NCBI GenBank assembly: GCA_034439735.1 | Contig: JAWXAX010000090.1 | Coordinates: 1-61,034 of the forward strand | Direction of reading: 5' to 3' | DNA from: Rhodothermales bacterium | GTDB taxonomy: Bacteria > Bacteroidota > Rhodothermia > Rhodothermales > JAHQVL01 | Length of the DNA stretch: 61,034 bases | In this document: in pieces, positions 56,962-61,034 of the stretch | Numbering within the stretch: position 1 is the stretch's first letter | Layout: each line of letters starts with the position of its first letter | Notes under the pieces: generated by a model | The model's input: only the letters and a program-made list of their open reading frames with translations | What the model was told of the DNA's origin: nothing | The model's database searches: none | Position numbers and translations under genes: made by a program

Positions 56962-57074
56962 AACCTGACCGATTCGGTTTGATCTAACCGGGACACCCCG
57001 GTCGATACTATGTAAGGATACCGTAAAGGATCCGTGTAAGGATCGCGTGATGGCTACACGCGAAAGGGCGGCGC

Positions 57075-57344
57075 CTACTTTCTCTTTTCGCCGGAGTGAC
57101 CACGGAACGTACGGGTCGGCGCAAACTCGCCCAGGCGATGCCCTACCATGTTCTCCGTGATGTACACCGGGATAAACTGCTTGCCATTGTGCACGGCAAA
57201 GGTGTGCCCGACAAAGTCCGGCGCAATCATCGACGCGCGGCTCCAGGTCTTGATCACCTTCTTCTTGCCGGCATCGTTCAACACCGACACCTTGCGCTGC
57301 AGCTTATAGTGTACGAACGGTCCTTTCTTGAGTGAGCGTGCCAT
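57075..57344 (-). CDS. rpsS: Ribosomal protein S19
   Basis: Small-subunit head protein, 89 residues. Motifs: [81 protein letters not shown] 113-nt gap precedes rplV downstream; I see no gene in it. Confidence 0.99.
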
Positions 57345-57395
57345 ACGATAATTGAGTCAACTCGTTTGCGCTGAGGAAAAAGAGACGCTGCCCGG

Positions 57396-58220
57396 TTATT
57401 TCTTGCGGCGACGGATGATGTAGCGATCCGACAGATTCCGCTTGCGGCGCGTCTTGAAACCCTTGGCCGGGACGCCGGTCGGGGAGCGCGGATGACCACC
57501 CGATGCCTTGCCTTCACCACCGCCCATCGGGTGGTCGACAGGGTTCATGGCCACACCACGTACCTTAGGCCGAATGCCCAGCCAGCGCTTGCGGCCGGCC
57601 TTGCCGTAATCGATGTTGTTGTGATCCGGATTGCTGGTTGTCCCCAGCGTCGCCATACACTGTACCGGCACCATGCGCGTCTCGCCCGAGGGAAGACGGA
57701 GGGTGGCATACGTCCCTTCCCGGGCCGTCAACTGGGCGAACGTGCCGGCCGAACGAGCGAGCTGAGCGCCTTTGCCCGGCTTCATCTCGATCGCATGCAC
57801 AAACGACCCCACCGGCACCTGCGCCAGGGGCAGGCAGTTGCCAGGCTCCGGGGGCGAACCCGGGCCGTTGAGCAGGGTCATCCCGACCGTGATCTCGTTC
57901 GGCGCGATGATGTAGCGCTTCTCGCCATCGGCGTATACCAGCAATGCAATACGGGCCGAGCGATTCGGATCGTATTCAATGCTCGCCACGCGCGCCGGAA
58001 TGCCAAGCTTGTTGCGCTTGAAGTCGATGATGCGGTAGCGGCGCTTGTGACCCCCACCCTGGTGGCGGACCGTAATGCGACCCAGGTTGTTGCGGCCGCT
58101 CATGCTTTTCAGCGGCGCAAGAAGGCTCTTCTCCGGCTCCCACTTGGTGATGGTGTCGAACGCGGATACCGATCGTTGCCGTTGACCCGGCGTATTGGGT
58201 TTGTACTGTCGAATAGCCAT
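57396..58220 (-). CDS. rplB: Ribosomal protein L2
   Basis: Universal large-subunit protein near the peptidyl-transferase centre, 274 residues. Motifs: [80 protein letters not shown], and the catalytic-centre block [20 protein letters not shown], including the His in VDHPMGG that is essential in other bacteria. Confidence 0.99.
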
Positions 58221-58246
58221 GGCTCTGTCGTTACGTCTACCGCGCG

Positions 58247-58546
58247 TTACACGTTCTCAAAGAAATCGATTGGCGAGCTGCCCGGCTGCAGCGTCACGAT
58301 CGCCCGTTTGTAGGATGCCGTGCTGCCCGAGACAAGGCCGCGCTTCGTAAACTGCCGGCGGCGTTTGCCCCGCACGTTCAGCGTCCGCACTTCCTTGATC
58401 TGCACGCCCGGGTAGCGCGATTCAATCGCTTTGCGAATTTCAATCTTGTTTGCGCCCGAATCGACCACGAAGGCATAATGACTAGCCTCCATGAGATGCG
58501 ACATCTTCTCCGTCACAAAGGGCCGCAACAATATCTGTTTGTTCAT
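58247..58546 (-). CDS. rplW: Ribosomal protein L23
   Basis: Exit-tunnel protein and docking site for trigger factor and SRP, 99 residues. Motifs: [80 protein letters not shown]. It starts 35 nt after the end of rplD. Confidence 0.98.
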
Positions 58547-58581
58547 GATCGCTCCTTTTACACGTATGCGTCTTCAAGACC

Positions 58582-59292
58582 TCAAGCGGTCGGTTCGGAA
58601 GGGGGTTGTGCACCCTTTTTGCTCGATGCTTTGCGCGCCGCTGCCGCCACGGGAGGAGCCTCGACGGCCCCGAGCACGCGACCCAACGAATCGATCGCGC
58701 CCTCCTGCAGCACCAAGACCTTCGCGTTCAACACGTCGAGGGTCGATACCGCGTCCGCATTCAGCACCTGCAGCTTCGGAATATTGCGGCCCGAACGGTA
58801 TGCGTTCACATCCACCCCATTCGTAAGCAACAGCACCTTGGATCCGGCCAGGCCAAGTGCGGCGAGCATCGCCACCATCGCCCCGGTGTCCGGAGATTCG
58901 AACTTGAAGTCCTCCACGATGCGAATGGCATCCGCAGTCGCCTTGTAGCTCAGCGCGGAGCGGCGAGCCAATTGCGTTGTCTTCTTGTTCACCTTGAAGG
59001 AATAGTCACGCGGACGGGGACCGAAGATCGTACCACCACTCCGACGAAGCGGCGATTTGGCCGAGCCGGCACGCGCGCCGCCCGTCCCCTTCTGGCGAAA
59101 CAATTTCCGTGTACTGCCGGCGACTTCCGCGCGTTCCTTGGCTTTATGCGTGCCCTGGCGTCCGCCGGCCTGAATACGGCGGATGTCCAACCAGATCGTG
59201 TGATCGTTGGGCTCTATGCCAAACACCGTGGCGTCCAGAGCAACCGAGCGCCCTGTTTCCTTGCCGTCTTGTTGAAGGACCTTGAGTTTCAT
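58582..59292 (-). CDS. rplD: Ribosomal protein L4
   Basis: Large-subunit assembly protein with an extended tunnel loop, 236 residues. Motifs: DIRRIQAGGRQGTHKAKERA, EVAGSTRKLFRQKGTGGARA, GSAKSPLRRSGGTIFGPRPR, DYSFKVNKKTTQLARRSALS. The last 25 residues are an Ala/Lys/Pro-rich tail. In E. coli L4 represses the S10 operon; no leader structure could be assigned here. Confidence 0.98.
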   Translation of the reverse strand: MKLKVLQQDGKETGRSVALDATVFGIEPNDHTIWLDIRRIQAGGRQGTHKAKERAEVAGSTRKLFRQKGTGGARAGSAKSPLRRSGGTIFGPRPRDYSFKVNKKTTQLARRSALSYKATADAIRIVEDFKFESPDTGAMVAMLAALGLAGSKVLLLTNGVDVNAYRSGRNIPKLQVLNADAVSTLDVLNAKVLVLQEGAIDSLGRVLGAVEAPPVAAAARKASSKKGAQPPSEPTA

Positions 59293-59355
59293 GTTCTTCC
59301 GTTCGCTATGCGTTACTGCTCGACCGGCGCCTCGGCGCTTCGGTCTATCTCACGG

Positions 59356-59985
59356 TTACTTGCGGTGAATCTCCACCATTCCGTTTTTGGGACCGGGGAC
59401 AGCGCCCCGCACCAGAATTACCTGATGCTCCGGGTAGATGCGCACTACCTGCAGGTTGAGGACCTTCACCCGGCTGTCACCCATGTGGCCCGCCATCCGC
59501 ATCCCCTTCACTACGCGCGAAGGAAAGGAGGAAGCGCCGATTGAACCCGGTGCGCGTCCGCGGTTGTGCTGGCCATGCGTGCGCATACCGACACCGCTAA
59601 ACCCGTGGCGTCGAACCACACCCTGAAAACCTTTTCCCTTCGAAGTCCCGACTACGTGTACGATGTCGCCCACATTGAACAAGGATTCCACGCGAGCTTC
59701 CGCTCCCAGCTCGACCGGTTCCGCGAAGTCGCGAAACTCGGCTACAAAGCGTTTGGGGGTCGTGCCGGCTTTCGCAAAGTGCCCTTTCTGGGCCTTGGTG
59801 GTTCGTTTTTCTTTGCGTTCGCCGAAGCTCAGCTGCACGGCGTCATACCCGTCCGCCCCATCCGACGTTTTGACCTGCGTCACCACATTCGGGCCGGCTT
59901 CAATGACCGTGCATGGGATACTGTTTCCAGCTTCATCGAAAATGCTGGTCATCCCTATCTTTTTTCCGATCAATCCGCTACTCAT
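59356..59985 (-). CDS. rplC: Ribosomal protein L3
   Basis: Large-subunit assembly initiator, 209 residues. Motifs: [120 protein letters not shown]. Unlike the usual order, the gene before it is not rpsJ but a lipoprotein gene. Confidence 0.99.
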
Positions 59986-60054
59986 GGCTCTATACGATTC
60001 TATTGCCCGGGCTCGTTAAGGAGCCGTTTCTGGGGTTTGTGGCTTTCGCCAGTT

Positions 60055-60531
60055 TTAACTCGTCCGCTCGATGGTCAGCGTCACATCACCTGTCAGTAGC
60101 GATCCCGCTTCAGCGCCCAGGAGCGCCACGAGAACGGTGCTGTCGGCCGTCAATACGATGGTGTCCGCATCTTCGATGACATAATCGAATCCAAGGCTGA
60201 ACGGTACGCCGCTGAACGTCACCGCCAGCAGCAACTGCCGCGTGGCTTCGTTGACGGTATACGTACCCGCGAGGCTCACGTCTTCTTCCTCCGGCGCCAC
60301 GATATCAACCGTCAGGGCGTGCGAACCCTCCTCCTCAAGGCTCAACGTTAGCGTGCCGAGCTGGGAGAAAACGGCCGTTTTGTCGCCCTCCTCATCGGAG
60401 GCGCCGGTTAATTCCCAGGTGCCGATAAACTGCTCGAGATCACTCGTATCCTCCGTGCCGTCGCAGCCAACGGCCACGAAAACGAGCAGGAAAAAGGCCA
60501 GTGCCGGCAGAATAGGATGGGTTCGTTTCAT
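60055..60531 (-). CDS. Small lipocalin-like lipoprotein inserted in the S10 operon
   Basis: A 158-residue predicted lipoprotein. The signal MKRTHPILPALAFFLLVFVA ends in a lipobox-like AVGC (Cys23). The mature part begins with a short acidic linker and EQFIGTWELTG, the GxW start typical of lipocalin-like beta-barrels. It then alternates short beta strands (LGTLTLSLEEEGSHALTVDI, LAGTYTVNEATRQLLLAVTF, YVIEDADTIVLTADS). It is strongly acidic, unlike the basic ribosomal proteins around it. It lies 32 nt after rpsJ and 69 nt before rplC on the same strand, so it should be co-transcribed with them. No function is known to me, and no frame damage is visible. Confidence 0.85.
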   Translation of the reverse strand: MKRTHPILPALAFFLLVFVAVGCDGTEDTSDLEQFIGTWELTGASDEEGDKTAVFSQLGTLTLSLEEEGSHALTVDIVAPEEEDVSLAGTYTVNEATRQLLLAVTFSGVPFSLGFDYVIEDADTIVLTADSTVLVALLGAEAGSLLTGDVTLTIERTS

Positions 60532-60563
60532 CGCAGGGGAATACGTCTGGTGGGACGGTACGG

Positions 60564-60875
60564 TCAGACTTTGATTTCGACGTCCACTCCGCTCGGCAAT
60601 TCGAGCTTCATCAAGGCGTCGACCGTCTTGCTACTGGTCGACAATATGTCGATCAGTCGCTTGTGACTGCGCGTTTCGAACTGTTCGCGACTTTTCTTGT
60701 CGACATGCGGGCTACGCAAAACGGTGTAGATCGATTTCCGCGTAGGAAGCGGAATCGGGCCGCTCACCACAGCGCCCGTCTGTTTGACGGTGCGGATGAT
60801 CTTCTCTGCACTTTTGTCGATCAGGCTGTGGTCAAACGACTTCAGCTTGATGCGAATTTTCTGATGACTTGCCAT
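60564..60875 (-). CDS. rpsJ: Ribosomal protein S10
   Basis: Small-subunit head protein, also the NusE partner of NusB in antitermination, 103 residues. Motifs: [80 protein letters not shown]. It is the first complete gene of the S10 part and is separated from tuf by a heptamer element. Confidence 0.99.
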
Positions 60876-60910
60876 CTTTGTTTCGTTCGAATCGTGCGTA
60901 CTCGGTCATC

Positions 60911-60984
60911 GGTAATAGTCGATTGGTGTTGGCCAATGAGGACTCATTAACCATTGACCATCAACTATTAACCATCAACCATTC
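60911..60984. repeat. Heptanucleotide inverted-arm element D
   Basis: Left arm (60911-60944) in degenerate 7-mers: GGTAATA, GTCGATT, GGTGTTG, GCCAATG. Right arm (60945-60984) in 7-mers: ATTAACC, ATTGACC, ATCAACT, ATTAACC, ATCAACC. The arms are approximate reverse complements, adjacent with almost no spacer. The element occupies the space between the tuf stop codon (2 nt away) and rpsJ, on the minus-strand transcript of the ribosomal cluster. Confidence 0.78.
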
Positions 60985-60986
60985 CT

Positions 60987-61034
60987 TTAGTCCAGAATCT
61001 TTGACACTACGCCGGCGCCCACCGTGCGGCCGCC
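60987..61034 (-). CDS. tuf: Elongation factor Tu, last 15 codons
   Basis: Only the 3' end is in the window. It reads GGRTVGAGVVSKILD and a TAA, which is the invariant C-terminus of EF-Tu (EGGRTVGAGVV.KI). EF-Tu delivers aminoacyl-tRNA to the ribosome. Its place upstream of rpsJ on the same strand is the common str-S10 junction. Confidence 0.93.
   Translation of the reverse strand, partial: GGRTVGAGVVSKILD

Follow-up and report, generated by a model that had tools for sequence, protein, structure and literature searches.

A Predicted Lipocalin-Like Lipoprotein Gene Resident Between rpsJ and rplC in the Order Rhodothermales

The ribosomal protein genes rpsJ and rplC are among the most conserved gene pairs in bacteria. 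Non-ribosomal genes are known as residents of ribosomal-protein operons, and secY, adk, map, and rpoA are examples. Lipocalins have a basic residue that packs on the Trp, and the stress sensor NlpE carries a CXXC motif. In Bacteroidetes, the lipoprotein export signal comprises a polar residue and then acidic ones, located at about +2 to +6 relative to the lipobox Cys (PMC5080379). For lipocalin lipoproteins with TonB receptors we found no direct precedent; the one paper retrieved, PMC13142918, mentions only host lipocalin-2. The gene described here was unreported in the literature searched.

The gene lies in the window, by which we mean the whole 61,034-nucleotide stretch of Rhodothermales DNA that was analysed. 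The relevant features are as follows.

60055 to 60531, minus strand: lipocalin-like lipoprotein gene (predicted), 158 codons plus stop
60466 to 60531, minus strand: putative signal peptide, residues 1–22, ending in lipobox V-A-V-G before Cys23 (sequence reading)
60058 to 60465, minus strand: mature domain, a short acidic linker followed by a predicted 8-stranded lipocalin-like barrel (AlphaFold2, Foldseek)
60564 to 60875, minus strand: rpsJ (ribosomal protein S10), upstream neighbour (Pfam Ribosomal_S10, E=2e-38)
59356 to 59985, minus strand: rplC (ribosomal protein L3), downstream neighbour (Pfam Ribosomal_L3, E=1.7e-14)
60987 to 61034, minus strand: 3' end of a tuf-like gene, EF-Tu C-terminus ending in RTVGAGVVSKILD, at the contig end (sequence reading)

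The lipoprotein gene is separated by 32 nt from rpsJ and by 69 nt from rplC, and all three genes are on the minus strand, exactly as an earlier sequence-only reading had claimed. The contigs of many relatives likewise end just upstream of rpsJ. Short AT-rich repeats (TTAACCATTGACCATCAACTATTAACCATCAACCATT) were seen at 60940–60985, in the interval between the tuf-like gene and rpsJ.

The comparison of rpsJ–rplC across Rhodothermales proposed in that reading was carried out by measuring the gap at 125 loci of the class. The gaps were bimodal, either 11–111 nt or 503–696 nt, with a single exception of about 260–269 nt in genome G011 (family f10; L062), which contained unrelated sequence instead of a lipoprotein ORF. 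Long gaps were present in 58 of the 93 Rhodothermales copies, in families f1, f2, f4, f5, f7, f9, f11, f12, f13, and f14, and in 0 of 32 copies from four other family-level lineages of the same class (f16, f17, f18, and f20). Each of the 58 gaps longer than 490 nt that were read contained one lipobox ORF of 151–230 amino acids belonging to the same family. Searched against 60 relatives, the window protein matched 31; of 30 loci retrieved, counting the window's own, 28 had the gene at the rpsJ–rplC site, including L009, where rpsJ is off the contig. Profile searches showed the gene to be almost single-copy and nearly always at this site. Among 65 Bacteroidota loci with both rpsJ and rplC, the gene was found only in L071, which is a Rhodothermales record (JAHQVL010000167.1, 'Rhodothermaceae bacterium isolate MAG.022'). 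The suggestion that presence across the phylum would make the gene ordinary therefore held in part: it is ordinary for the order, but was missing from all other sampled members of the class and, outside the class, from the sampled Bacteroidota.

A FastTree phylogeny of six ribosomal proteins from 44 taxa recovered the order as a clade, and the presence pattern was explained by one gain and seven losses, also when both kinds of event were given the same cost; the count is approximate because the proteins represent a single linked locus. Profile searches of the loss lineages (f3, which we take to resemble Rhodothermus, f8, f15, and others) detected no homologue elsewhere, with two exceptions. 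G032 (f12) lacks the gene at the site (L156) and has a homologue beside a TonB receptor gene (L155), and G039 gave one weak match (E=7.6e-4). These results indicate that the gene is order-specific and, as judged from its distribution, ancestral to Rhodothermales, with inheritance at the same site and about seven losses. The repeated loss shows that it is dispensable. Genome G205 had two rpsJ–rplC loci, on contigs C18 (L032) and C500 (L069), only one of which carries the gene; contamination, listed at 5%, is the likely cause.

The N-terminus of the window protein, MKRTHPILPALAFFLLVFVAVG/CDGTED, reads as a typical lipoprotein signal peptide with lipobox VAVG/C. Among the 58 homologues at the rpsJ–rplC site, Cys+1 was invariant, as the lipoprotein claim had implied, and Asp at +2 was present in 55, G67 in 57, and a Lys or Arg close to the C-terminus in 48. 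Signal peptide and invariant lipobox Cys identify these proteins as lipoproteins, their lipidation itself being predicted, and Rhodothermales gain by them an unstudied lipoprotein family. The family has two branches, a main branch and a Salinibacter-type branch (f13), that are homologous over their full length (hhalign 98.7%, E=3e-16). The mature part of the window protein has a pI of 4.05 and a net charge of −24, in agreement with its earlier description as acidic. A pI of about 4 is found in most of the family, versus about 10 in some f13 members, which are basic (L044, L046, L047, L049, and L050).

AlphaFold2 modelled the window protein with pLDDT 89.8 and pTM 0.82, and a representative of the f13 branch with pLDDT 86.0 and pTM 0.82. 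The predicted structure of the window protein has eight strands, with a helix preceding the last one, and is an up-and-down barrel of the lipocalin/calycin type. The N-terminal GxW on the first strand that marks this fold is at mature residues 15–17 of the window protein, and its G15 and W17 were invariant (58/58). Foldseek searches of the PDB with the model of the window protein placed lipocalins on top (best E=1.9e-5, TM 0.64 by query length), with matches to Bla g 4, RBP, ApoD, and FABP, and also to 4iab. For the Salinibacter-type branch the best matches were lipocalin-like proteins of Bacteroides (4i95, 4gzv, and 4iab; best E=2e-3). The predicted fold supported the designation lipocalin-like.

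In sequence-based searches the window protein had no match to Lipocalin_4 (PF13648; Pfam gathering cut-off 22.4 bits). This cut-off was passed by relatives at the site in L011 (22.8), L021 (23.6), and L036 (22.5) and missed by those in L041 (22.2) and L024 (18.5); at E<=0.1, Lipocalin_4 matched 21 of 40 relatives. A PDB sequence search with the window protein gave no significant match. Two other assignments were rejected. The NCBIfam model TIGR03066 scored the window protein at 20.4 against a cut-off of 93.25. An NlpE-like copper or stress sensor was considered for relative L002, which scored 21.2 against 22, and was discarded because the window protein has no CXXC, its sole cysteine being Cys+1.

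The mature part gave dN/dS values of 0.02–0.5 in 15 closely related pairs, always below 1 and usually above those of rplC; these are Nei-Gojobori estimates and are rough where dS exceeds 1. The gene is under purifying selection and evolves faster than rplC. Because 58 genomes have a homologous ORF at the same site and selection is purifying, the ORF is not a chance one.

In f13 and f11 the start codon of the gene shares bases with the rpsJ stop (GTGA/ATGA), and in the closest cases in f14 only 2 nt separate its stop from the rplC ATG downstream. In positions 57000–61034 of the window a promoter scan returned none, terminator candidates were all on the plus strand and none on the minus strand, and Rfam gave no RNA family match in the region. 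Given the overlaps and 2-nt gaps in relatives, a single mRNA with rpsJ and rplC is likely. Growth-coupled expression at ribosomal-protein levels is plausible, since those overlaps imply one mRNA. Codon usage was scored as a log-likelihood ratio because CAI failed to separate the ribosomal-protein genes from others in the window genome. By this score the gene was ribosomal-protein-like there, at the 96th percentile among 159 genes, and also in G034 (91st percentile), but not in G014 (38th); the background of G012 was distorted by spurious ORFs and is unreliable. Codon usage weakly backs ribosomal-level expression, in some genomes only.

Long intervals of another kind were seen in Flavobacterium. 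Four loci (L119, L121, L124, and L138) had an rpsJ–rplC gap of approximately 400 nt, with a terminator-like hairpin and T run after rpsJ and promoter-like TACTTTTGCA before rplC; given these elements, the two genes may be transcribed separately at these loci. The 274-nt gap of L088 (Flavobacterium sp. SUN052) differed from the other Flavobacterium gaps in having a GC-rich stretch that looks structured.

Evidence on location came from the residues after the cysteine and from paralogues. Main-branch proteins had a mean of 3.3 Asp/Glu at +2 to +8 after Cys, reading CDGTED in the window and C-D-S-x-D-D/E in most non-Salinibacter relatives; no acidic export-like stretch was found after Cys in the Salinibacter-type (f13) branch. 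G008 has a paralogue with a FecR gene on one side and a peptidase M23 gene on the other, the latter followed by a TonB receptor gene (L151), and that of G032 directly precedes the TonB receptor gene. Other paralogues adjoin yajC in G007 (L027, L157) or lie near a DUF547 gene in G017 (L152). Family f14 has one or two genes of approximately 280–300 amino acids with a lipocalin-like N-terminal domain that matches the A1 profile, located as follows.

L153, 3205 to 5342: f14 long versions
L154, 3610 to 5742: f14 long versions
L158, 3760 to 4674: f14 long version

Two long versions of G034 (L153) were tested for the T9SS domain Por_Secre_tail, and their scores fell narrowly on either side of the Pfam cut-off, one above it and one below. 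These contexts favour ligand binding at the outer membrane or cell surface. The paralogues at TonB receptors are few and diverged, and the transfer of their context to the operon gene may fail. The protein is probably a small-molecule binder at the cell envelope, and its rare paralogues point to a place on the outer membrane, probably facing the surface. The proposal that it is an envelope component agrees with the lipobox, the predicted fold, and those paralogues that lie at TonB receptor genes or bear a T9SS tail.

The explanation we favour, and consider reasonably probable, is that the S10 operon has long housed this order-specific gene, which is co-transcribed with it and encodes an outer-membrane, lipocalin-like ligand binder. 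A single insertion between rpsJ and rplC would have occurred in the Rhodothermales ancestor, followed by vertical descent at the site with several clean deletions since. Transcription would most likely be on the tuf/rpsJ–rplC ribosomal mRNA, as we infer from the overlaps and few-nucleotide gaps in relatives and from the scan, which gave neither promoter nor terminator candidates on the minus strand. The product would be exported and lipidated on Cys23, with its anchor in the outer membrane, and because of the acidic stretch after the cysteine it may face outward in most families. The barrel would probably bind a small, possibly hydrophobic ligand and store it or pass it to outer-membrane components, e.g., TonB-dependent receptors. 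The operon position would lead to abundant synthesis that scales with growth. A bolder reading is that a dedicated ligand-binding lipoprotein, exposed at the surface, was built into the ribosomal operon in the ancestor of Rhodothermales, such that envelope or nutrient-capture capacity scales with ribosome synthesis. We regard this as speculative and rather unlikely; if true, it would tie the cell surface firmly to growth rate in a way specific to this lineage.

Three other explanations were weighed. It is possible, if doubtful, that the gene is tolerated as a passenger, a useful envelope gene with no relation to the S10 operon that landed there and uses the operon promoter. In this view its position is without meaning for growth control, and it stays only because rearrangement of that operon is costly. 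Ribosomal-protein operons are seldom rearranged, and the roughly seven clean losses, the fast evolution of the protein relative to rplC, and the unadapted codon usage in G014 also count for a passenger. However, the exact site has been kept over many families and the gene almost never occurs elsewhere, although it could easily have relocated and the operon copy then been lost, and in some families it came to overlap rpsJ or rplC closely. Should the ORF act mainly in cis, with its translation spacing or regulating rplC and the downstream genes by coupling or attenuation and the protein secondary, the close coupling in f13, f11, and f14 would find an explanation. We consider this very improbable, because selection is purifying at the amino-acid level, the lipobox and GxW are invariant, the predicted fold is confident, no known RNA family was matched in the region (Rfam), and intergenic lengths vary.

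A recent insertion or an assembly chimera would agree with the absence of the gene from the other lineages of the class that were sampled. Its probability is negligible, given that the same site is occupied in 58 genomes of at least 10 families and that the tree gives one old gain. Assembly error, named earlier as a possible refutation, is ruled out by recurrence at the same site in independent assemblies, including the single-contig genomes G012, G034, and G025. The idea of a recent, tolerated insertion fails as well, because the gene dates back to the ancestor of the order, has been inherited at one site, is subject to purifying selection, and has disappeared about seven times.

The resident reading makes the gene a natural test of whether a ribosomal-operon position is itself selected, since a fast-evolving envelope lipoprotein entered the pair once, was kept through most of the order, and is almost never seen at other sites in those genomes. 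The gene is also a marker of operon structure for Rhodothermales.

Compared with known proteins, the family shares its predicted fold and GxW (58/58) with the classical lipocalins Bla g 4, retinol-binding protein, and ApoD, but the barrel is shorter and identity is about 12–19%. The C-terminal Lys/Arg (48/58) may correspond to the basic residue that packs on the lipocalin Trp. The likeness to Bacteroides 4i95, 4gzv, and 4iab is at the level of fold only, with 10–15% identity and E about 2e-3 for the Salinibacter-type branch. E. coli Blc, the bacterial lipocalin for comparison, was not among the Foldseek matches listed. Lipocalin_4 (PF13648) is likewise a short exported domain with GxW near its start and a predicted barrel; the window protein lacks a match to it, and what defines the present family is its constant position within the S10 operon. 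The run of acidic residues behind Cys resembles the export signal, although +2 is Asp here whereas the signal favours a polar residue first, and that signal, defined in Bacteroidetes (PMC5080379), may not operate in Rhodothermota. Like secY, adk, map, and rpoA, the gene is a non-ribosomal one long held in a ribosomal-protein operon; those four belong to the widely conserved core, whereas the present gene encodes an order-specific, fast-evolving envelope lipoprotein and splits the rpsJ–rplC pair.
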